DNA of 64,000 nucleotides from positions 124,001 through 188,000 of the forward strand of contig NZ_BLWF01000004.1 of NCBI RefSeq assembly GCF_013167955.1. Reading direction: 5' to 3'. Both the position numbers and the translations under genes were made by a program. The DNA comes from Thermanaeromonas sp. C210. GTDB lineage: Bacteria > Bacillota > DSM-521 > Neomoorellales > Neomoorellaceae. The stretch's first letter is position 1. Each line of letters begins with the position of its first letter. The notes below the pieces were generated by a model. It worked only from the letters and a program-made list of their open reading frames with translations, was not told the DNA's origin and ran no database searches. Below, piece after piece: positions 14,378 to 61,374 of the stretch.

Positions 14378-15160
14378 CTAGCGGCGCAGTTTTTGCAACT
14401 CCTCCAGCAGGTTGTCGTTCAGAATGCGGATATAGGTCCCCTTCATGCCCAGGGACTTGGACTCGATGACACCGGCGCTTTCGAACTTCCGCAGGGCATT
14501 CACAATAACCGAACGGGTAATCCCGGCCCGATCGGCTATTTTGCTGGCTACCAGGATTCCTTCATCGCCGTCCAGTTCGGCAAAAATGTGCTCGACTGCT
14601 TCCAGCTCGGAATAAGACAGGGTAGCCAGCGCCACCTGCACGGCAGCACGCTTGCGCGCCTCCTCTTCAATCTTTTCGGCTTTAGAACGCAGGATCTCCA
14701 TACCCACTACGGTGGCCCCATATTCGGCCAAAATCAAGTCTTCATCGGTAAACCTGATGTTAAACTTGGACAACACCAGGGAACCAAGGCGCTGGCCGCC
14801 GCTGACGATGGGTACCACGGTCGTCAACTTGTTGTTGAAAACACACCTCTTCTCGGCGTCGAACACGCAGGCATTACCCACCTGGCAGAAGTTGGCCTGG
14901 GTTTCATCAATACGGAGGAGTTGTTCGTTGTATTTCTCCGGGAAGCGCTCCGATTGGAACACTATCTCCTCCATAATGTCGCAGGTGAAACCCTCCACAA
15001 AAGCATAACCCAGGACCCGCCCGTGGCGGCCGACGATATAGGTGTTAGCTCCGAGGACGTCCCGGAGTACGCTGGCCATTTCTTGGAAATCCACTGGGTT
15101 GCCCGCGGTCTTTTGCAGAAGACGGTTGATACTGCGCGTTTTTTCCAGCAAGGTTTGCAT
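14378..15160 (-). CDS. codY: GTP-sensing transcriptional repressor CodY
   Basis: Global regulator of nutrient-limitation genes in Firmicutes that binds GTP and branched-chain amino acids. The N-terminal GAF domain (about 1-155) and the C-terminal winged helix with [20 protein letters not shown] and [13 protein letters not shown] are both intact. The start is taken as the ATG at 15160 (MQTLLEKTR), with AAAGGAGG 11 bases upstream; a TTG three codons earlier is less likely. It ends the xerC-hslV-hslU-codY block, the same order as in Bacillus. Confidence 0.97.
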
Positions 15161-15188
15161 AAATGCCAATTCCTCCTTTCAGTTGATT

Positions 15189-16574
15189 CTACAAGATGTA
15201 GGCCCTTACATCGGCATTCTGCAGAATATCTCCTAGTTTCTCCCGGACGTAGTTACGGTCGATAACTACCCGGTTGGGCTGCCGGTCGGGAGCTTCAAAT
15301 AAGAGATCCTGCAACACCTTTTCCAGGATGGTATGGAGACGGCGTGCGCCGATGTCTTCTCCTTGAGTATTTACAGTATAAGCAATATCGGCAATTTCCG
15401 CAATAGCATCACCAGTAAATTCTAATTCTAAACCTTCTGTAGCCAGGAGAGCAGCATACTGCCGCAGTAGAGAGTTCTCCGGCTCCGTTAAGATGCGCCG
15501 GAAGTCCTCCCGGCTCAGGCTCTTGAGTTCCACCCTGATGGGGAAACGGCCCTGTAGCTCGGGAATCAGATCGGAAGGCTTGGCTATATGAAAGGCGCCG
15601 GCGGCAATGAACAAAATATGATCGGTCCTCACCGGGCCATACTTGGTCTGTACGGTAGCACCTTCCACAATGGGTAGGATGTCCCTCTGTACGCCTTCCC
15701 GGGACACATCGGGTCCCACGCCGCCGTTACGCCCGGCAATCTTATCGATTTCGTCGATAAATATAATACCATTTTGTTCTACCCTCTGTACAGCTTCTGC
15801 CGCTACTTCGTCCATATCTATGAGCTTATCCGCTTCTTCCTGGGTGAGAATCCGGCGTGCCTCGGCGACAGTTACCCGCCGCTTGCGTTTACGCCGGGGT
15901 AAAAAGTTACTTAAGGCATCCTGGAGATTGACGCCCAGCTCTTCCAGACCCAGGGCACCAAACATGAGGCCCGGGGCCGCGCTCTCTTCCACCTCTATCT
16001 CTATAACCATATCCTCCAGTTCTTTTCTCCGCAGTTTCTCCCGCAGAATGGCCCTCTCGTCTTCCGTAACCCCAGGAGCCTCTCCGGCCGGTGTCTCGCC
16101 CTCGGCCACGCCTCCGAAAATCAGCTCCCACGGGTTGCGTCCCTCCCGGCCCCGGCGCGGGCGCGGAGCTAAAAGGTCCAGGAGCCTTCTTTCCGCCAGC
16201 TTAGCGGCTTCTTTTTCCACTTCGGCCCGTTTCTCTTCCTTCACCATTCTTACGGCCTTCTCCACGAGCTCCCGGACCATGGACTCTACGTCCCGGCCCA
16301 CATACCCTACCTCGGTAAACCGCGTGGCCTCCACCTTGACGAAAGGGGCCCCAACTAGACGGGCCAGGCGCCGAGCAATTTCCGTCTTTCCGACACCCGT
16401 CGGGCCGATCATCAGGATATTCTTGGGCAGAACTTCATCCCGTATCTCGGGCGGGAGTTTTTGCCGCCTGTAGCGGTTACGCAAAGCAACGGCCACGCAT
16501 TTCTTGGCCTCTTCCTGGCCTATGATGTATTTATCCAGTTCGCGCACTATTTCACGAGGTGTAAGGACAGACAC
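15189..16574 (-). CDS. hslU: ATP-dependent protease ATPase subunit HslU (ClpY)
   Basis: AAA+ unfoldase that feeds the HslV protease. Features: start [20 protein letters not shown], Walker [10 protein letters not shown] (about 53-61), pore motif GYVGRD, the family-specific intermediate domain (about 110-240), Walker [12 protein letters not shown] and sensor region GRFPIRVEL. The C-terminus VRAYIL resembles the hydrophobic tail that docks into HslV. Its 461 residues are normal. It lies 67 bases after hslV and 28 bases before codY. Confidence 0.97.
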
Positions 16575-16641
16575 CCCGCCACCTCCTTACCCCTTGGCGC
16601 CGCCTCAGTCTGTTTGCGGCTTCACCCGCTCTTATGATATT

Positions 16642-17166
16642 CTATAATTCTTCCACTACTATATTATCGTTAGTATAAATGCAAATTGAAGCAGCAATTT
16701 TCAAGGCTTCCCGGGCAATGGTAGCGGCATCGAGCCCCGTATGGGTAAGGAGGGCCCGGGCCGCTGCCAGGGCATAGGGTCCCCCGGAGCCGATGGCCAC
16801 CAGCCCATCATCGGGCTCCAGGATCTCGCCGCTGCCGGAAATGAGGAGGAGGCCCTCCCGGTCGGCTACCACCAGCAGGGCCTCCAGGCGCCTGAGCATG
16901 CGGTCGGTACGCCAATCTTTACCCAGTTCCACGGCCGCCCGCCATAGGTTGCCGTGGTATTCCTCTAGTTTGCCTTCGAATTTTTCAAAGAGGGCGAGGG
17001 CATCGGCCACGCTGCCGGCGAAGCCAGCCAGAACCTGTCCCCGGTAAAGGCGCCGTACCTTCCGCGCCCCGTGCTTAATCACGGTGTTTCCCAGGGTTAC
17101 CTGCCCGTCGCTGCCCATGGCCACTCTGCCATCCCGTCTAACGGCGACCACCGTGGTCCCTTCCAC
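16642..17166 (-). CDS. hslV: ATP-dependent protease peptidase subunit HslV (ClpQ)
   Basis: Proteasome-like threonine protease that works with HslU. The sequence starts [26 protein letters not shown]. Processing after Gly-3 would expose the N-terminal Thr nucleophile. The Lys-33 region ([10 protein letters not shown]) and the [14 protein letters not shown] motif are conserved. The GTG start immediately follows the xerC stop, so the two are coupled. Confidence 0.96.
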
Positions 17167-18105
17167 TTAGGTTTCCTCCTCGGTTAAGGCTTTGCCGGCC
17201 CGGGGATGGGCCAGATCGTAAACTTCCCGCAGGCGATGGGGATTAACATGGGTGTAAACCTGGGTGCTGCTCAGCCTAGCGTGGCCCAGCAGTTCCTGCA
17301 CCGCCCGCAGATCGGCGCCGCGCTCCAGCATATGGGTAGCAAAACAGTGGCGCAGGGTATGCGGGCATATACCGGCAGACAGGGAGGCCTTTCTAACATA
17401 ATGCTCCAGCCGTTCCCGGATGCCCCGGCTGCTCAGCCGGCCACCCCGGTAGTTGAGGAAAAGGGCCCTCTCCGGCCGCCGTCCTTTACGCTCCAAGAGC
17501 GGACGCGCAGAACGGAGATACTCCTCCAGGGCCGCCCGGGCTGCCGCTCCCAGGGGCGCCAACCGCTCCCGCCGGCCCTTGCCCATTACCCTTAAATGGC
17601 CACCCTTTAAGTCTAAATCATCCAGGTCGAGGTTGACAAGCTCCCCTACCCGTACCCCGGACGCATAAAGGGTTTCCAGGATAGCCCGGTCCCGCAAGCC
17701 CAGGGGAGTGTGAACTGGGATTTCTAGAAGCCTCAGGAGGTCGGGATAACTAATGTACTGCGGTAGACGTTTAGGCTGCCGGGGGGCTTTGATGGTGTCT
17801 ACGGGGTTGCGGTCGACTATGCCTTCCCTCAGAAGATAGCGATAAAACACCCTCAGGGACACCAGTTTCCGCGCCATGCTGCTCCTCTGTTGTCTTTGCC
17901 CGTTGAGCCAGCCTAAAAAGCGGCGGACCAGAAGGTGGTCGACCTCATTGGGATGGGCTGTGGGGCCCAGGTTTTTTTCGATAAAAGAAGCAAATTGTCT
18001 TAAATCAGTCAAATAGGCCTTCAAGGTGCCCGGCGCCGCGTTTTTCTCCCCCGTCAGGTAAGAGGCAAACTCCTCCAGGGCTTCGGCAAAGGTATTAACC
18101 CTCAT
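17167..18105 (-). CDS. xerC: Tyrosine recombinase XerC/CodV
   Basis: Site-specific recombinase that resolves chromosome dimers at dif. It has an N-terminal SAM-like DNA-binding domain (about 1-90) and a C-terminal catalytic domain with Arg in ASGVRVGEL, Lys in MGKGRRER, HTLRHCFATH, GHARLSSTQVY (final Tyr nucleophile). The 312-residue length and the position between trmFO and hslV mark it as the housekeeping CodV-type enzyme rather than a phage integrase. Confidence 0.94.
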   Translation of the reverse strand: MRVNTFAEALEEFASYLTGEKNAAPGTLKAYLTDLRQFASFIEKNLGPTAHPNEVDHLLVRRFLGWLNGQRQQRSSMARKLVSLRVFYRYLLREGIVDRNPVDTIKAPRQPKRLPQYISYPDLLRLLEIPVHTPLGLRDRAILETLYASGVRVGELVNLDLDDLDLKGGHLRVMGKGRRERLAPLGAAARAALEEYLRSARPLLERKGRRPERALFLNYRGGRLSSRGIRERLEHYVRKASLSAGICPHTLRHCFATHMLERGADLRAVQELLGHARLSSTQVYTHVNPHRLREVYDLAHPRAGKALTEEET

Positions 18106-18164
18106 TTAAGGAGGGCCTCCTTACTTAATGTATATCTTATATCAAAAAGCGCCAAAAGTGCAAG

Positions 18165-19484
18165 TCAATTGAGCGAAAATTCGCCGAGAATCTTCTGCCA
18201 GCTACTGATGGCCCGCCGGGAAAGAAGGAGATTTCGCTGCCGTCGCGACCGGACCCGGCGATCCAGCGGGGGCAGTAGGCCGAAATTAATGTTCATTGGC
18301 TGGAAGCGGGCCGGGTCGGCCGTGGTAATATAATGTATCAGGGCACCGTGGGCCGTATCCAGGGGCAAATCCAGGGGCTCCAGACCCTTTATTAACCTCA
18401 CGGCATTGATCCCGGCCACCAGCCCCATGGCGGCTGATTCAATGTATCCTTCCACCCCTATGAGCTGGCCTGCCAGAAAGATTTCCGGGCGCCCCTTAAG
18501 CTGCAACGTGGGCGTCAGCAAGCGGGGAGCATTAATGTAGGTGTTCCGGTGCATTACGCCGTAACGCACGAATTCGGCCCGGGCCAGGGCGGGAATCAGG
18601 CGAAAAACCCGCTCCTGTTCTCCCCACTTAAGGCTGGTCTGAAAGCCCACCAAGTTATACAGCGTGCCCTCACGATTGTCCTGGCGCAGCTGGACCACGG
18701 CAAAGGGCCGCTTCCCCGAAACGGGGTCCACCAGGCCCGTGGGCCGCATGGGCCCGTAGCGCAGGGTTTCAGGCCCTCGCCTGGCCATCTCTTCCACCGG
18801 CATGCACCCTTCGAAATAGATTTCTTGTTCAAAGGGGTGGGGGGTATGGCGCTCTGCACGAAGGAGGGCCTGGTAAAAAGTATAGTATTCTTCCTCCGAC
18901 AGGGGGCAGTTTAAATAATCCCCCTCTCCCCCGCCGTAACGGGAGCCCCGGAAGACCTTGCTCCAATCCAGGGAATCGGCGGTAACAATGGGAGCCGCCG
19001 CGTCATAAAAATAGAGATATTCCTCTCCGGTCAGATCCTTAAGGGCCTCCGTAAGGGCTGGCGAGGTCAAGGGGCCGGTGGCCATGATGACCACCCGTCC
19101 GGCGGGTATCTCCTTTACTTCTTCCCGGATTACTTCAATGGAAGGGTGACCTTCTATGCGGGCCGTGACCTCCCGGCTGAACCCTTCCCGGTCCACGGCC
19201 AGGGCCTTACCAGCCGGAACCCGATGCCTGGCAGCCACTTCCATCAAGAGGGAACCTGCCTGACGCATTTCCTCTTTCAGCAGGCCAGCCGCATTCTCCA
19301 GCTCGTCGGAGCGGAGGGAATTGGAGCAAACCAGCTCGGCCAAATAGCCGGTCTGGTGGGCGGGAGTGGTCTTGGCAGGGCGCATCTCCCAGAGCTCCAC
19401 CTTTATTCCCCGCGAGGCGGCCTGCCAGGCCGCCTCACTGCCGGCCAAGCCCCCGCCTATGATCATAAGGGTATCCGATTTCAC
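18165..19484 (-). CDS. trmFO: Methylenetetrahydrofolate-tRNA-(uracil-5-)-methyltransferase TrmFO
   Basis: FAD- and folate-dependent enzyme that makes 5-methyluridine at position 54 of tRNA. The N-terminal FAD loop [15 protein letters not shown] and the family segments [13 protein letters not shown] and [15 protein letters not shown] are present. The start is set at the GTG at 19484, preceded by AGGGGGAAGG and overlapping the topA stop (GTGA); the frame is open further upstream inside topA but that part is not TrmFO-like. About 439 residues, normal. Confidence 0.96.
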
Positions 19485-21583
19485 GGTTGTCCTTCCCCCT
19501 GCCTTGGCATCTTTTCTTCGTAGCCACAGCCCTGTTGGGGGCAGACCAGGCGGACCTCGCGTCGGTTGGCCTTTTCCACCAGGCGGCTGCCGCACCGGGG
19601 GCAGGAGCTCTCACTTGGTTTGTCCCAGGAAATATAATCGCACTGGGGGTAATTCCTGCAGCTGTAAAAGCGGCGCCCCTTTTTGCTGCGCCTTTCTACA
19701 ACCTCCCCGCCGCACCGGGGACAGGATACACCTATAGCCGTAAGCAGGGGCTTGGTAAAACGGCACTCGGGAAAACCCGGGCACGCCAGGAACTTGCCGA
19801 ACCGGCCCTGTTTTACCACCAAATTGCGGCCGCATATCTCGCACTTTTCCTCGCTGACCTCTTCCGGCAGTTCAATAACCCCGATCTTGGCCTCGGCCTG
19901 TTCCAAGACCCGGCTGAAGGGAAGATAGAATTCCTCCACCACCTGCCGCCAGGATAGCCTGCCTTCTTCGATCTGGTCTAACTTGGCCTCCATGTGAGCT
20001 GTAAATTCCACGTCGATGATATCGGGGAAATGCTCCTTTAAAAGGTCTACCACTACGCGCCCCAGTTCGGTGGGGACCAACTGTTTCTGCTCCCGCACCA
20101 CGTAGCCCCTGCTCAAAATAGTCTCAATGGTGGGGGCATAGGTGCTGGGCCGGCCGATGCCCAGCTCTTCCATGGTTTTCACCAGGGTTGCCTCGGTATA
20201 GCGGGGAGGCGGCTGGGTAAAATGCTGCTTGGGATCGAGGGAAACCAGGGTCAGGATCTGGCCCGGTACCAGCTCCGGTAAGCGCTCCTCTTTCTCCCCT
20301 TCTTCCCCGTCCCTGTCCTCCCTGTATAGCTTTAGGAAACCAGGGAACTTAACCACCGAGCCGCTGGCGCGAAAGAGGTATTCCCCGGCGGCAATGTCCA
20401 GGGTAACGGTATCCAGCACCGCCGCTTCCATCTGGCTAGCCAAAAAGCGTTCCCATACCAGGGCATACAGGCGGTACTGGTCCCGCGTAAGATACCCTTT
20501 AATGGATTCGGGGTCCAGCCCCACGGAGGTCGGCCTAATGGCCTCATGGGCGTCCTGGACGTTGTCCTTGCGGGCGCTGTATTGCCGCCTTTCCCGCGGA
20601 ACATAATCGGGCCCGAAATGCTCCTGCAGGTAGTGGCGGGCTTCCTCCTGGGCCACCTGGGCTACACGGGTGGAATCCGTGCGAATGTAAGTGATGAGGC
20701 CCACCCTACCCCATTCCGGGCCTAGATCGACGCCTTCGTAAAGCTGTTGGGCCACCTGCATGGTGCGCCGGGTAGTAAAATTCAGCCGCCGCGAGGCTTC
20801 CTGCTGCAGAGTGCTGGTGGTGAAAGGCGCCGGTGGATTCTTGCGCCGTTCCTTTTTCTTGACCTCCACCACTTTAAAGGGTACACCGGCCAGGGCGGCC
20901 AGCACCCGGTCCATGGCCTCTTTGTTAGGGATGCTAACGGCCTCGTCCCGGTATTTGTGGAGCTTTGCCGCAAAGGCGGGCCCTTCTTCCCCTTTCAGCC
21001 ACGCCGTTAGGCTCCAATATTCCTCGGGTTGAAAACTTTGGATCTCCCTCTCCCGGTCCACGATTAACCGAACGGCCACCGACTGCACCCTTCCGGCGCT
21101 CAACCCCTTCTTAATTTTTCGCCAGAGAAGGGGGCTAAGTTTGTAGCCCACCAAGCGGTCCAAAACCCGGCGGGCCTGCTGGGCCGCTACGCGATCCTGG
21201 TCAATAGCCCGTGGTTTCTTAATGGCCTCCAAGATGGCCTGGCGCGTAATTTCGTTGAATTCTATCCTGCACTGGCCGTCCGGCAGGCCTAGAAGGTGCT
21301 GCAGGTGCCAGGCAATGGCTTCCCCTTCTCGGTCCGGATCCGGCGCCAAAAGCACCTTGTCGGTCTTCTGGGCCGCCTGCCTCAACTCCTTGACGATCTC
21401 CCCTTTGCCACGGATGGTAATATAATGGGGTTCAAAGCCGTTTTCGATGTCGATACCGAATTGGCTTTTGGGCAGGTCCCTTATGTGGCCCATGGACGAC
21501 TTGACTAAATAGCCGCGGCCCAAAAATTTGCTTATAGTCTTGGCCTTGGCCGGTGATTCTACTATGACCAGCGTTTTAGCCAC
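19481..21583 (-). CDS. topA: DNA topoisomerase I
   Basis: Type IA topoisomerase that relaxes negative supercoils. The N-terminal TOPRIM domain begins [16 protein letters not shown] and contains the [11 protein letters not shown] acidic triad. The active-site Tyr is in [14 protein letters not shown]. Three C-terminal four-cysteine zinc ribbons are visible (CEICG...CPGFPEC, CPRCG...CRNYPQC, CPRCG...CPQQGC). I place the start at the GTG at 21583, which yields the usual N-terminus and has AGAGGTG six bases upstream; an in-frame GTG at 21604 is possible. Confidence 0.96.
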
Positions 21584-21608
21584 TTTTTTCACCTCTGCTG
21601 ACACCGGG

Positions 21609-22712
21609 CTAACAACGCGAATATAGTCCCCCTGGCATCCTCGTGACGAGGCCCTGCAATTCTAAGAAGGTGAGGGCGACGTTTATTTCTCGGGCAGGCA
21701 ACCCCACAGCGGCCACCAGCTCTTCCACCGCTGCCGGCACGTCACCCAGGGCGGCCAGAACCTTCTCCTCTGTGGGGGACAGCTTAAAGCCGCCTGTCCT
21801 TTCCCTCCGTTCCGGGAGAGCCGGAGGGCCGTAATCGGAAAAATATTCCTCCAGGATGTCCTCTACACCCGTGACCAGTTTCGCTCCCTGTTTAATCAAG
21901 TTCAGAGTTCCCTTGCTCTGAAGGCTGGTAATGGGCCCCGGTACGGCAAATACATCCCGCCCCTGCTCCAGGGCAAAATCGGCCGTTATAAGGGCCCCGC
22001 TCCTTTCCCCTGCCTCCACCACCACCGTTCCCGGGCAAAGACCGCTTATAATGCGGTTGCGGGCCGGAAAGTGATGCCTCTCTGGAGGCGTTCCCGGCGG
22101 CAGTTCCGACAATATAAGCCCCTCCCGGGCTATCTGTTGGAAGAGGGACGTATTTTGACGGGGATAGATTACATCCACCCCGCACCCTAAAACGGCTATA
22201 GTCTTGCCTTTGCCCTGGAGGGCACCTCGATGGGCGGCGGCGTCTATACCTACCGCGAGTCCGCTCACCACGGACACCCCTTGTTCCGCCAGTTCCCGGG
22301 CCAAAGCCTGGGCCACTTTTAACCCATAGGCTGTAGCCCGCCTGGTGCCCACGACGGCCACTTTAAGGTTTTCCAGGAAATCTAAACTTCCACGATAATA
22401 CAACACCGGAGGCGGATTGTAAATGTTTTTTAGCTCCTGGGGATAAACAGGGTCGGAAAATAGGAGAACTCCCACCCCCGAACCGGTGAGATTATCCCAT
22501 AGCTCTGCCGGACGGACTTTACTCCGCCAGTCCAGCAGTCTTCCGGCCCCTTCTCCCAACCAGGTCAGGCTGCGGAGTTCCTCCTCACCCGCCCTCCAGG
22601 CTGCTTCCGCGCTGCCGAAGTGTTCGATAAGCTGCAACATTCTGCGTCCTCGCAGCCCGGGGCATTGATGTAAGGCTACCCAGTAACCCCGGTCTACATT
22701 TTCATAACTCAA
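21609..22712 (-). CDS. dprA: DNA-processing protein DprA/Smf
   Basis: Loads RecA on incoming single-stranded DNA in natural transformation. It has an N-terminal SAM/HhH region (about 1-65), the Rossmann-like core with VVGTRRATAYG, SGLAVGIDAAAHRGAL, VLGCGVDVIYP and HHFPARNRIISGL, and a C-terminal winged helix (about 305-367). The order dprA-topA-trmFO-xerC matches Bacillus smf-topA-gid-codV. Confidence 0.96.
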   Translation of the reverse strand: MSYENVDRGYWVALHQCPGLRGRRMLQLIEHFGSAEAAWRAGEEELRSLTWLGEGAGRLLDWRSKVRPAELWDNLTGSGVGVLLFSDPVYPQELKNIYNPPPVLYYRGSLDFLENLKVAVVGTRRATAYGLKVAQALARELAEQGVSVVSGLAVGIDAAAHRGALQGKGKTIAVLGCGVDVIYPRQNTSLFQQIAREGLILSELPPGTPPERHHFPARNRIISGLCPGTVVVEAGERSGALITADFALEQGRDVFAVPGPITSLQSKGTLNLIKQGAKLVTGVEDILEEYFSDYGPPALPERRERTGGFKLSPTEEKVLAALGDVPAAVEELVAAVGLPAREINVALTFLELQGLVTRMPGGLYSRC

Positions 22713-22786
22713 CTTTCCCTGTTCCCCCTACCGAATATTCGCCTTACGGGGCCGAGCCCTGCAGAAAAAACGGGTCCCGCACTTGC

Positions 22787-22921
22787 CTAAGGGCCTCCAC
22801 CGGCGGGCTTGCCCTCCTGTTCCTTACCGCCCTTTTTCTTATCACCAATGGCCATTAAGAGGAGAACGAGGAAAAAAACCTGTAACACTAGTGAACTCAG
22901 GGCCGCCAACATTTTAAGCAT
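22787..22921 (-). CDS. Small membrane peptide (44 aa), unknown function
   Basis: An unrecognised 44-residue reading frame. It opens MLKMLAALSSLVLQVFFLVLL, continues as one hydrophobic helix to about residue 26, and ends in a charged Lys/Gly-rich tail (KKKGGKEQEGKPAGGG). The ATG at 22921 has AGGGGGTGG about five bases upstream. It lies in the gatD-dprA gap on the same strand as its neighbours. The helix-plus-basic-tail layout and the good ribosome site argue for a real small membrane protein; there is no evidence for function. Confidence 0.55.
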   Translation of the reverse strand: MLKMLAALSSLVLQVFFLVLLLMAIGDKKKGGKEQEGKPAGGGP

Positions 22922-23013
22922 CAATCCCACCCCCTGTTAAAGGATGCTGCTCGCCATACCGCACCCGGCTTATAGAAGAGCCACCGCTCCCGGTAGCCGC
23001 AGCCTACGGTATG

Positions 23014-23766
23014 TTAACCTCCCTTCCTCCTACCCCGGCCGAACCGCCGCAGAAGATTCTCGTTGGCCTCCCACTCCAGTTCATCATTCAGAGGAGCTAA
23101 AGGGACCTCGCCGTAACGCTTCTGCAGCGCCAGGGCCAAAACGTAATCGGCCAGATGGGGATTCTTGGCCAGAAGCGGTCCGTGAAGATAAGTGCCGATG
23201 ACCCTCCCGGAAATGCAACCTTCGGTGCCGTCTGCCCCATTATTTCCAAAACCGAACACCACGTGGCCCAGGGGTTCTGCCTGCCCGTCACCTTCGAGAA
23301 AAGTGCGGCCCCCGTGGTTTTCAAATCCGACCACCGGCCTAGGGTCGCCCAGGCGCGGAGCGCGAATAGCTATGTTACCCTTCAGGCGCCGGTTTCCCGC
23401 TTCCGTATATACCGGCAATAGGCCCAGTCCCGGAAGAATATTACCTCCTGCGGTGCGGTAATAGCGACCGAAGAGCTGGTACCCACCGCATATAGCCAGC
23501 ACCGCAGCTCCTTCTTCCACGGCTTCCCTCAGCCAGGGTCCTTTGGTGAGCAGATCCCTGGCCGCTACACCCTGCTCCTGATCGGGGCCTCCTCCCAGGA
23601 AAAACAAGTCGTATAGTTTGGGATCCAAAGGGTCCCCTAAGGAGAGACCGGTTATTTCTACTGCTATACCCCGCCACCGGGCGCGACGGTAAAGGACGAG
23701 GATATTGCCGCGGTCCCCGTAGAGATTAAGCAGGTCGGGATAAAGGTGGCATATATGCAGCTTCAC
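23014..23766 (-). CDS. gatD: Lipid II isoglutaminyl synthase, glutamine amidotransferase subunit GatD
   Basis: Supplies ammonia from glutamine to MurT, which amidates D-Glu of lipid II to D-isoGln. The class I triad is visible: nucleophile in AVLAICGGYQLFG, His in GTYLHGPLLAKNPHLAD. The start is placed at GTG 23766 (VKLHICHLYPDLLNLYGDRGN), preceded by GGGGATGGGAG. It overlaps the end of murT by 41 bases, so the two subunits are translationally coupled. The C-terminus is basic. Confidence 0.93.
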   Translation of the reverse strand: MKLHICHLYPDLLNLYGDRGNILVLYRRARWRGIAVEITGLSLGDPLDPKLYDLFFLGGGPDQEQGVAARDLLTKGPWLREAVEEGAAVLAICGGYQLFGRYYRTAGGNILPGLGLLPVYTEAGNRRLKGNIAIRAPRLGDPRPVVGFENHGGRTFLEGDGQAEPLGHVVFGFGNNGADGTEGCISGRVIGTYLHGPLLAKNPHLADYVLALALQKRYGEVPLAPLNDELEWEANENLLRRFGRGRRKGG

Positions 23767-25114
23767 TGTGAGCTCCCATCCCCTTGAGCAAACGGCGGCA
23801 AAGGGCGAGATTAGTATAGGTACACAGTATAATAAGGTTATCAACCGGTTCCCGGGTGGCCTCGCGCAGGGCGGACTCCAGGTCGGGAATCACTTTTAAG
23901 GCCTCAAGGCTTACCCCGCTGTATTTCAGACAAACGGCCATATCCCACGCCCTAAGGCCGGAACAAATAATCCGCGAGTAGAGGGATTTGAGCAGGGGTT
24001 CCAGGTCCACGTCCCAAAGCCAGGATACGTCGCGACCGTCGGCCGCCAGGTCGTTGATGGCCACGATATATGCCGCCGGCCGATTCCCCGCGACCGTCCG
24101 CAGGGCTTCAGCCATCCCCACGGGATTCTTGACTAGAACCAGAACACCCTTCTTGCCTGCCAGCCGGAAACCTTCTATGCGTCCCCGCCCCGGGCGAAAA
24201 TCCTTCACTACTTCCCGTATTACCGAAGGCTCTACTCCCAAAAGCATTCCTGCACTGCTGGCCGTCAAGACGTTATAAGCATTATAGACACCGGGAAGGG
24301 CACTCGTCAACCTTATACGGCCGCCGTTAAAAACAAAATGGAAAGAAGAACCGTTTTCATCCCAGAGGAAGTCCTCGGCCCGGAAGGCCGTTTCCGGACG
24401 CGCCCAGTCACAGCGGGGGCAGCGATAGGATCCCAAGTGCCCGTAATGGTAATAGGCGTACTCCAAAGGCACCCGGCAGGAGGGGCAGAGGTGCCCCTCC
24501 TGCACATCAGCCGGGCGGGTTCGGCTAAGGGGGGTGCGCTCCAACCCGTAATAAAAAACTCCCTTTCTGCCGCGCCCCAAAGAGGCAACTAATGAGTCGT
24601 CCGCATTAAGGAGCAGCCGGGCCTCGGGCACCTGAGCCAGGGCCCCCTTTATCGATGCGGCCAACTGTTCTAATTCATGGTACCGGTCCAGCTGATCCCG
24701 TAGAAGATTGGTAACTACCACCAGGTGAGCGGGCACTTGTCCCAAAACTATACCCAAGCTACCTTCATCCACCTCTAAAACCGCTGCGCGGCCGTAACCT
24801 TTAGCTTTTGCCCCTTTGAGCATGGCCGTAGCCACCCCAGCCGGCATATTGGCTCCTTCGCCATTGTACACCACCTGCCAGCCCTGGGCGGTCAAGAGCT
24901 GAGCCAGCAAGTTGGAGGTGGTAGTTTTGCCGTTGGTACCGGTAACGATGACAATGGGGTTTAAGCCCCGGGCGAGGTGGCGCAAGAGGCCCGGGAACAC
25001 CTTGAGCGCTATACAGCCCGGCAGGGACGTGGCATCCCGACCTGCCAGGCGACAAAGGAGGGCCGCCAGGCGGCCCAGGAATACTGCCAGCGAACAAAGT
25101 AGAAGATTAAACAT
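23726..25114 (-). CDS. murT: Lipid II isoglutaminyl synthase, Mur ligase-like subunit MurT
   Basis: ATP-dependent catalytic partner of GatD. The Mur-ligase P-loop IVTGTNGKTTTSNLLAQLL is near residues 57-75, followed by the MurT-specific four-cysteine ribbon (CPSCRVPLEYAYYHYGHLG ... CPRC, about 208-236) and the C-terminal DUF1727 domain with VAINDLAADGRDVSWLWDVD. It has 462 residues. It overlaps murJ upstream by eight bases, giving a murJ-murT-gatD cell wall operon. Confidence 0.94.
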   Translation of the reverse strand: MFNLLLCSLAVFLGRLAALLCRLAGRDATSLPGCIALKVFPGLLRHLARGLNPIVIVTGTNGKTTTSNLLAQLLTAQGWQVVYNGEGANMPAGVATAMLKGAKAKGYGRAAVLEVDEGSLGIVLGQVPAHLVVVTNLLRDQLDRYHELEQLAASIKGALAQVPEARLLLNADDSLVASLGRGRKGVFYYGLERTPLSRTRPADVQEGHLCPSCRVPLEYAYYHYGHLGSYRCPRCDWARPETAFRAEDFLWDENGSSFHFVFNGGRIRLTSALPGVYNAYNVLTASSAGMLLGVEPSVIREVVKDFRPGRGRIEGFRLAGKKGVLVLVKNPVGMAEALRTVAGNRPAAYIVAINDLAADGRDVSWLWDVDLEPLLKSLYSRIICSGLRAWDMAVCLKYSGVSLEALKVIPDLESALREATREPVDNLIILCTYTNLALCRRLLKGMGAHSEAAYMPPLSRPA

Positions 25115-32794: not shown

Positions 32795-33164
32795 CGACTA
32801 ATGGTCTTGTCAATAAAGAACAAAGGAAGGACCCATCACCCCTCTTCGCTTTTTGGTGGAAACTTTAGAGACGATAAACTTCTTAGCCGAATGAATGCCC
32901 TGGTGTCTATAGTTGAGGATTTAACTGCGGTGAGGGCAGGAACAATCCTAGCTAGATTCCAATCTTGTTGGTATTTAAAGACGAAAAAGCTCCTACCGAT
33001 CACTGGTCGCTTTCAGTAGGAGCTATTAGCTCATTGAGCATTAGACGAGTTCCATCGCCGTTGTATTTAAGTCATTATCATATATGCTATATTATAGCAA
33101 CGACGTCTAATTTGCCCTTCAATAGCTTCCGTTCAAGGTAGACATATCGTATATAAAATTTAAC
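32795..33164. other. Non-coding gap with two inverted repeats
   Basis: No gene is supported in these 370 bases. Two structures stand out: AGCTCCTAC (32988-32996) with GTAGGAGCT (33016-33024), which on the minus strand is followed by TTTTTC like a terminator; and ATTAGACG (33039-33046) with CGTCTAAT (about 33103-33110) enclosing a second pair CGTTG/CAACG and an AT-rich core. This looks like the remains of a gene end or mobile-element end. Confidence 0.45.
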
Positions 33165-58194: not shown

Positions 58195-58385
58195 ACACCA
58201 CACCCCCGGACGGGCAGGTCTCCTGACTCCCGGATCATCGCCCCACGGCGCCTTCCCGTTCCCTCACGGTGCTTTTTGAAAGGAGAACAGTGGCTCCTGC
58301 CGCAGGCTTCCCGGTCACAGTGGCGGGACCGTTCAGGATTCTCACCTGATTCCCTATTAAGTCTCTTGGACACCCGTCCGCAGAA
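58195..58385 (-). promoter_or_regulatory. Cobalamin riboswitch
   Basis: Read on the minus strand: AGGGAATCAGGTGAGAATCC, then GCCACTGTGACCGGGAAG, an inner arm, and finally the B12 box GAGTCAGGAGACCTGCCCGTCC. These are the conserved blocks of the AdoCbl aptamer in the correct order. It lies 150 bases upstream of the binding-protein gene, with GGTCCGTCGTAGCCGGG-like hairpin sequence (about 58115-58145) between, probably the terminator of the expression platform. Confidence 0.95.
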
Positions 58386-58450
58386 CTAGCTTGTCAGCAG
58401 TATTATAACTTATAATCGCTTAAAGGTCGAGGGGGAAATTCGTCTGAGTT

Positions 58451-58699
58451 ATCCCCACTTTTTGCAGGGCAGGCCTGCTTGGGCTTGGAAGCGAGCGACT
58501 AAACCTGAGCGGTAGCCAAACTTAGCGAGGCGAAAGGCGGAGGCAGGCCCGAGGCCATGGATGGCCGAGGCCGGCAACTGAGACAGGAGGTCGAATTTGC
58601 CGGGAAGCCTGCCGGAGCCTTGAGCCAAGCGCTAGTTTGGCCCGCGAGGGTTTTTGGAGCGAGCGAAAGTCAAGCAGGCCTAGAAGCAAAACTGGGGAT
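58451..58699. repeat. ~250-bp fold-back element, possible structured RNA or MITE
   Basis: Five nested complementary pairs close on one another: ATCCCCA/TGGGGAT, TTTTTGC/GCAAAA, AGGCCTGCTTG/CAAGCAGGCCT (11 bp, perfect), GCCAAACTTAGCG/CGCTAGTTTGGC and GGCAGGC/GCCTGCC, with a central hairpin GGCCATGGATGGCC. The 11-mer GGGAAATTCGT flanks it at 58433-58443 and 58706-58716. No protein is encoded. It fills the gap between the cobalamin riboswitch and the MFS gene. Confidence 0.75.
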
Positions 58700-58793
58700 G
58701 CGCCAGGGAAATTCGTACCCCAGCAACTAGGAGACGCCTGCAACTGGTGATATAATTAAACTGCGACCGGTAAAAATTAAGGGGGATGACCTG

Positions 58794-60146
58794 ATGAGCA
58801 TAGCTGCGAGGCTCGAGCGCCTCCCCCTCAGCTCCTTTCATTATAAATTGCTCCTTATATGCGGCCTTGGCTGGCTGTTCGATGCCATGGATGTGGGGCT
58901 GATATCATTTGTCCTGCCGGCCATAGCTCAAGATTGGCAGCTAGACGCCGCGCAGCTGGGCGCCCTGGGAAGCATCGGTATGGCGGGCCTGGGACTGGGA
59001 GCCGTCCTCGGCGGGATCCTGGGTGATTTGTGGGGACGGAAACGGGTATTTACGTGTACTCTAGTAGTGTACGGTGTGGCTACCTTTCTGGCAGGATTGT
59101 CCACTAACTATGCCGTGTTAATGTTTACCAGGTTTGTTATCGGATTAGGTTTGGGAGCCGAAATACCTGTGGCCTTCACTTTGGCCAGCGAATTCTCACC
59201 GGCCGCACACCGGGGCCGCATGACGGTCCTTCTCGAAAGTTTTTGGGCCTTGGGTTGGATAGCGGCAGCGCTGGTCGGCTACCTCGCGGTTCCTTCCTGG
59301 GGGTGGCGAGCAGCCTTTTTCATCGGGGCCCTGCCGGCCCTTTATGCTGCCGTATTGAGGCGCGCCTTGCCCGAATCACCGTCGTATTTGGAAAAGGTCG
59401 GGCGCACTTTTGAGGCCGAGGCCATCGTCAGCAACGTAGAAAAGGCCTGCGGGATTTCGCCCGGTCCTGCCGCGGCCAATCTACCCTCACCTAACGGAGC
59501 GGGAGTAAACCGCCACGTAACCCGAGCCAAACTCTCTGACCTGTGGTCCCCGCGGTATCTCCGACGAACCCTGTGCCTGTGGATCCTGTGGTTTGGTATT
59601 AATGTGGCCTACTACGGGATTGTGACTTGGCTGCCCACCCTCATGGTGGGCAAAGGCTTCACCATCATCAAGAGCTTTGAGTATGTCCTGCTCATGACCA
59701 TGGCCCAAATACCGGGATATTTCAGCGCCGCCTACCTGGTAGAAGTGATAGGCCGCAAGGCTACTCTAAGCGTATATCTCCTCATGAGCGGGTTAGGTGC
59801 CTATATGTTTGCCCAATCGGCTACGGTACATCAAGTAATACTATGGGGTTCCGTGATTTACTTCTTTATGCTCGGTTCCTGGGGGGTACTCTACGCCTAC
59901 ACCCCCGAAATGTATCCTGCCGCCGTGCGGGCCACCGGGTCGGGCTGGGCGTCCTTCTGTGGTCGTATAGGGGCGGTCCTCGCTCCCTACGCCGTCGGCG
60001 CGGTACTTTCTTCCCTGGGACAGGCCACCGCCTACCCGGTAATTTTTGCCCTGATAGCTGCCGTTTGCCTCGTAACTTCCCTGGCCATGATTATACTGGG
60101 CATTGAAACGAAAGGCAAAACCTGGGAAGAATTGGCCCGGCTTTAG
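58794..60146 (+). CDS. MFS transporter, AAHS/sugar-porter-like
   Basis: A 450-residue carrier with 12 predicted helices. The N-terminal motif GLGWLFDAMDVGLISFVLPAI, the loop-2/3 motif GILGDLWGRKRVFTCTLVVYG, the loop-4/5 signature RFVIGLGLGAEIPVAFTLASEFSP and the C-terminal GRIGAVLAPYAVG resemble aromatic-acid:H+ symporters and related MFS members. The substrate cannot be told. AAGGGGGATGACCTG precedes the ATG. It stands alone on the plus strand. Confidence 0.9.
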   Translation: MSIAARLERLPLSSFHYKLLLICGLGWLFDAMDVGLISFVLPAIAQDWQLDAAQLGALGSIGMAGLGLGAVLGGILGDLWGRKRVFTCTLVVYGVATFLAGLSTNYAVLMFTRFVIGLGLGAEIPVAFTLASEFSPAAHRGRMTVLLESFWALGWIAAALVGYLAVPSWGWRAAFFIGALPALYAAVLRRALPESPSYLEKVGRTFEAEAIVSNVEKACGISPGPAAANLPSPNGAGVNRHVTRAKLSDLWSPRYLRRTLCLWILWFGINVAYYGIVTWLPTLMVGKGFTIIKSFEYVLLMTMAQIPGYFSAAYLVEVIGRKATLSVYLLMSGLGAYMFAQSATVHQVILWGSVIYFFMLGSWGVLYAYTPEMYPAAVRATGSGWASFCGRIGAVLAPYAVGAVLSSLGQATAYPVIFALIAAVCLVTSLAMIILGIETKGKTWEELARL

Positions 60147-61060: not shown

Positions 61061-61222
61061 CCGCCGCCGGCGCCGGTTCTGGCCCCCTGCTCCTTGCCTG
61101 CGGGAAGCCCGGACCAACCGCGTTGGTAAATTATGGATGTACCATATCCAAAGGAAATTCGGCGGTTAAAGGGTGGATGTCGGCAGGAATTTTTGAACAT
61201 ATGTAGAAATAAACTCGACAAG

Positions 61223-61327
61223 AAGCCTCTCCGAGCCGGTTAACCTAAAGGGCAACCCATGGTTAGTCGGCCTGGGTTTTCCAAGCCCACGGGGTATATC
61301 TGGAAACGGGTATGCCTTCCGAGGTTT
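61223..61327 (+). promoter_or_regulatory. Molybdenum-cofactor (Moco) type riboswitch aptamer
   Basis: P1 pairs AAGCCTC with GAGGTTT. Inside are CCGGTTAACC with GGTTAGTCGG capped by a GGGCAACCC hairpin, a short CTGGGTTTTCCAAGCCC hairpin, and the 3' block GGTATATCTGGAAACGGGTA, which resembles the GTATCTGGAAAGGTGTA block of the E. coli moaA Moco RNA. The order of blocks fits that family (or the tungsten-cofactor variant). Downstream are a paired antiterminator and terminator, as expected for a switch. Confidence 0.65.
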
Positions 61328-61374
61328 GAAAAGGAGGTGGCTCAGTTAGGGTTATTTTGGGTGTCTTCTTACTA

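Follow-up and report, generated by a model that had tools for sequence, protein, structure and literature searches.

We suggest that the intergenic fold-back element described here is, with high probability, a non-coding MITE which was moved in trans by an IS4-family transposase belonging to the IS10 subgroup. The element lies in a 64,000-nucleotide stretch of the genome of Thermanaeromonas sp. C210, which as a whole is called the window. What we observe are dispersed copies, duplications of 9–10 bp which are specific to each copy, ends shared with an insertion sequence, and an IS4-family transposase whose gene is broken in this genome. That an IS10-like transposase was the mover, and that it worked by cut and paste, would be the most likely interpretation.

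The initial annotation of the region left the choice between a MITE-like mobile unit and a large structured RNA. The first of these is borne out by the dispersed copies with their individual target duplications, by the common terminal inverted repeats and by the matching insertion sequence. As the primary nature of the element the second is not supported, as there is no Rfam match and the repeat occurs in many different gene contexts. In a weaker form, the hairpin may be preserved or may have effects once it is transcribed.

Extent and genomic setting of the element

The features of the window copy and of its surroundings are as follows.

58444–58706, plus strand: MITE copy of 263 bp, a non-coding imperfect fold-back (about 40 BLAST copies, boundaries by copy comparison, fold)
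58434–58443, no strand: left copy of the 10-bp target-site duplication GGAAATTCGT (sequence; 10 of 10 positions match)
58707–58716, no strand: right copy of the 10-bp target-site duplication GGAAATTCGT (sequence; 10 of 10 positions match)
58444–58461, plus strand: left terminal inverted repeat CTGAGTTATCCCCACTTT (TIR pattern search of the genome)
58689–58706, minus strand: right terminal inverted repeat CTGGCGCATCCCCAGTTT, read on the minus strand (TIR pattern and copy comparison)
58196–58392, minus strand: cobalamin riboswitch, outside the element (Rfam RF00174, 121.6 bits)
58402–58430, minus strand: promoter-like site TCGACC-17-TATAAT of the B12 operon (consensus match only)
58794–60146, plus strand: MFS transporter gene, downstream and outside the element (open reading frame)

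The 263-bp unit has a G+C content of 61% and is an imperfect palindrome from end to end, with the bounds CTG...CAG as seen by comparison of the copies. Its ends read CTGRSNYATCCCC, and CTGRSNYATCCCCRSTTT is present at both termini as terminal inverted repeats. Within the element there is no open reading frame of at least 80 amino acids and no transposase gene of its own. The stems and repeats of the initial annotation are present, among them the pair ATCCCCA (58451–58457) and TGGGGAT (58693–58699). The 11-mer GGGAAATTCGT has only two exact matches in the window, at 58433–58443 and 58706–58716, and had been read as a target duplication or a repeat boundary. A duplication it is, but of 10 bp (GGAAATTCGT), because the comparison of the copies sets the element as CTG...CAG at 58444–58706; on the right side the eleventh base is already the element's own last letter, a G.

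The MITE copy sits between the B12 (uptake) operon and the MFS gene, which are read in opposite directions. The promoter-like site of the B12 operon, which lies between riboswitch and element, has stayed intact; our search found one such site where 0.2 are expected. Relatives of the MFS transporter in Thermanaeromonas and Moorella are 71–73% identical. Judged from the sequence, the insertion appears to be neutral, with neither neighbouring gene visibly damaged.

An Rfam scan of the window revealed no family which covers the element, and only riboswitches elsewhere reach the cut-off. Besides the cobalamin riboswitch these are a molybdenum cofactor riboswitch at 61217–61352 (plus strand, 78.7 bits), upstream of an open reading frame resembling substrate-binding proteins, and a marginal fluoride riboswitch at 33010–33068 (minus strand, 34.1 bits at a cut-off of 34).

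Copies and target-site duplications in the genome

When the 2.68 Mb genome was queried by BLAST with the 351-bp region, 51 matches were retrieved. A copy count had been proposed in the initial annotation, and the element is indeed multicopy: about 40 of the matches are distinct and strong besides the window copy, with 72–95% identity over the matched part. Similarity among the copies ends at two fixed boundaries, at about query positions 45 and 308, both of which lie just inside the flanking repeats. The terminal pattern CTGRSNYATCCCCRCTTT, with up to two mismatches, was matched 95 times in the genome, compared to 6 times for its reversed control. Searching for the ends alone adds more diverged and shortened copies (about 110–115 bp; 239 bp). 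The family as a whole counts about 50 scattered members. Elements of about 110–115 bp with MITE ends are located at G000:C2:494416-494528, at C4:403525-403634 and in the region C4:362800-363600 (L198, L199, L207). These may be forms of the MITE that have lost part of their interior.

We counted target duplications in the 35 copies whose ends could be recognised, with CTG...CAG as the bounds of the element and at most one mismatch allowed. A 9-bp duplication is found in 16 of the copies, with 0.55 expected from 1000 shuffles of the flanks, and a 10-bp duplication in three, with 0.09 expected. Taken together, 19 of 35 copies have a duplication of either length against about 0.6 expected; a single copy may have been counted under both lengths. 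Flanks and duplications differ from copy to copy. A chance hairpin or local palindrome which merely happens to lie between flanking repeats and never moved is refuted by dispersed copies each having its own target duplication. We consider this explanation ruled out by copy number and duplications, and its probability as negligible.

After virtual excision of the element, 17 of 43 insertion sites span an open reading frame of at least 150 codons, compared to 86% of the control points, which were drawn from the same loci as the insertions. Most of the spanning frames that we inspected look spurious by eye; one of them, with 502 amino acids, belongs to a SelA-like gene, close to the start of which the element is inserted. 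MITE insertions are depleted from reading frames.

A candidate parent insertion sequence

The genome contains an insertion sequence of 1,120 bp with MITE-type ends at G000:C4:17613-18732, flanked by a perfect 9-bp duplication, CCTGCCGGC. The last 19 bp of the MITE are identical to its right end at 19 of 19 positions. Its transposase matches the NCBIfam IS4 family above the cut-off, and the reading frame is in two pieces of 67 and 267 amino acids. The gene is broken because of a deletion: relative to an intact homologue in the relative G018, about 95 bp are missing from its interior. The homologue is 86% identical to the relic and has an open frame of 418 amino acids, with a protein of 359 amino acids that scores 213.5 bits with NF033591 (cut-off 152) and carries at the third catalytic residue the Y-(2)-R-(3)-E-(6)-K signature as YGHRMEIEEKFKDFK. 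This intact copy is 1,214 bp long and has the same ends as the MITE, with no clear duplication. Outside the ends of about 20 bp no similarity is detectable between the interior of the MITE and the insertion sequence. Since the interiors are dissimilar, the MITE is not a simple internal deletion of the relic; by comparison of the sequences its interior would be of other origin or long diverged.

Members of the IS10 subgroup have CT ends, a length of 1200–1350 bp and 9-bp repeats (De Palmenaer et al. 2008, PMC2266710). The putative parent agrees with this subgroup of the IS4 family in its size, in its CT ends and in the 9-bp duplications. One could argue that a different transposase, unrelated to the IS10-like insertion sequence, recognises similar ends and moves the MITE, as other DDE_Tnp_1 transposases are present in the genome in 3–6 copies and the only insertion sequence found with matching ends is broken. 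However, a scan for the terminal inverted repeats with up to two mismatches found no other DDE_Tnp_1 gene bounded by MITE ends, and both the ends and the length of the duplication fit the IS10 subgroup. We regard a different mover as very unlikely and favour the IS10-like transposase.

The IS4 family transposes by cut and paste. We suggest that the gene-less MITE would be excised by an IS10-subgroup transposase, which an insertion sequence with matching ends would provide in trans. The excised MITE would then be pasted into a staggered cut of 9–10 bases, and the cut bases would subsequently be duplicated. In the Thermanaeromonas genome, which is 99.4% complete, no intact transposase with MITE ends was found. 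The family is probably immobile there now, unless an intact copy of the insertion sequence is hidden in an assembly gap.

At L122 433-864 (G000:C4, about 267930-268370) a MITE copy is located exactly one 9-bp duplication (GTGGCAGTA) from the end of another, degenerate copy. A similar spacing is seen for the relic of the insertion sequence (L197), which a single 9-bp duplication (CCTGCCGGC) separates from a MITE end. Insertions may possibly favour sites beside existing copies.

Fold and covariation

The 351-nt region is predicted to fold into one long hairpin of -162 kcal/mol. Shuffled sequences reach -125 ± 6 kcal/mol (z -6.2), with none of 100 as good, and the opposite strand folds with a z of -6.0. 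Folded alone, the 263-nt unit forms 94 pairs with -142 kcal/mol. The strong hairpin is retained in most copies, also where identity is as low as about 65%, mostly with z between -4 and -12; in several old copies (L117, L204, L209) the fold is lost.

The initial annotation had also proposed to look for compensatory changes between the copies, and some are present, although they are suggestive only. A single-copy sequence with no covariation, which it had named as speaking against its proposal, is not what we see: the copies are many and there is some covariation. RNAalifold gave only a weak consensus on the full alignment, probably due to indels. We therefore projected the fold of the window copy onto the alignment of the copies. 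The projected pairs are kept at 82.5%, compared to 78% in column shuffles and 28–47% when the fold is slid along the alignment. Double changes in pairs amount to 272 against at most 195 in column shuffles. On a tree of the copies, compensated double changes are commoner on internal branches (17 of 119) than on terminal branches (17 of 415; p = 0.0004). This pattern is suggestive of selection that acts in lineages while they transpose, with the single copies decaying afterwards. It could also arise from longer internal branches, from parsimony errors or from template switching in palindromes.

It might be, though we consider this doubtful, that the full-length hairpin itself is selected in transposing lineages because its folding, be it into a cruciform of the DNA or in the RNA, promotes mobility or protects the genes nearby. 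If this is true, the large structure and not the ends alone would define the element.

A more far-reaching explanation is that the element is a structured RNA, or a regulatory cassette acting at the RNA level, which was spread in the manner of a mobile unit, with its hairpin selected in transcripts for processing, termination or stability. The persistence of the fold in most copies, the retained pairing, the excess of double changes and the enrichment of compensated ones on internal branches could all be read in this way. But the element has no counterpart in Rfam, and in the window it is situated between divergently read genes. Furthermore, relatedness of the copies, parsimony errors and template-switch repair can yield compensated changes without any selection on RNA, and several old copies do without the fold. 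In our view this explanation is unlikely, and we hold to a MITE moved by a transposase in trans.

Distribution in relatives

Of the 61 genomes searched, 19 (among them that of the element itself) contain DNA similar to it, and most of these belong to the same family and order. Copies in the relatives G018 and G020 have perfect 9-bp duplications. Weaker matches, for example in the genus g7, cover the interior only, without recognisable ends; they may be relics of greater age, or their relationship may be a distant one. None of ten MFS loci of relatives from other genera holds the element. When the joined flanks were compared to these ten loci, no exact empty site was found at base level, because the intergenic DNA of the nearest relatives does not align; alignment of the joined flanks is confined to the MFS gene, beginning near its start codon.

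In the plasmid collection the sole match was NZ_CP061968.1, labelled as a Klebsiella pneumoniae plasmid. There, positions 14520-24746 (L111) form a 10 kb inverted repeat of 98.9% identity which is centred on a copy of the element. Judging from its sequence, this repeat probably arose as a fold-back artefact when DNA of a contaminating Firmicute was sequenced, and we set the match aside as evidence.

Comparison with known systems

A search of the literature on MITEs in Moorella or Thermanaeromonas found nothing relevant. The IS10-type MITE family thus appears to be undescribed in the literature searched; the kind of element is well known. The family occurs in Moorellales and in some other Firmicutes. 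It explains dozens of intergenic hairpins which could be mistaken for regulatory RNAs, one of them beside a cobalamin riboswitch. With many diverged and structured copies in one genome it is also a usable case for studying whether selection maintains the hairpins of MITEs.

MIC231 of the Bacillus cereus group is a miniature element derived from IS231 and mobilised in trans by an IS4-family transposase. Our element, which is likewise small, would resemble it in being moved in trans by a transposase of that family. The IS231 subgroup, however, has CAT ends and duplications of 10–12 bp (PMC2266710), and the ends of the window element do not match.

Like Correia/NEMIS, ERIC/IRU and RUP (PMC2229807), the window element is short and non-coding with inverted terminal repeats, a target duplication, a long end-to-end stem–loop and a mostly intergenic location. 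It is larger than these elements (263 bp against about 100–200 bp) and with 61% G+C it is not A+T-rich. Whereas they have 5'-TA-3' ends, it has CTG...CAG ends and 9–10 bp duplications, and the putative parent insertion sequence belongs to a different family.

From IS10/Tn10 itself the window element differs in that it has only 263 bp, lacks a transposase and matches at the ends only, and in its duplication of 10 instead of 9 bp. Common to both systems are the CT ends, the 9-bp duplications, an insertion sequence of about 1.2 kb and a DDE transposase with the full YREK signature (IS10 subgroup, PMC2266710).
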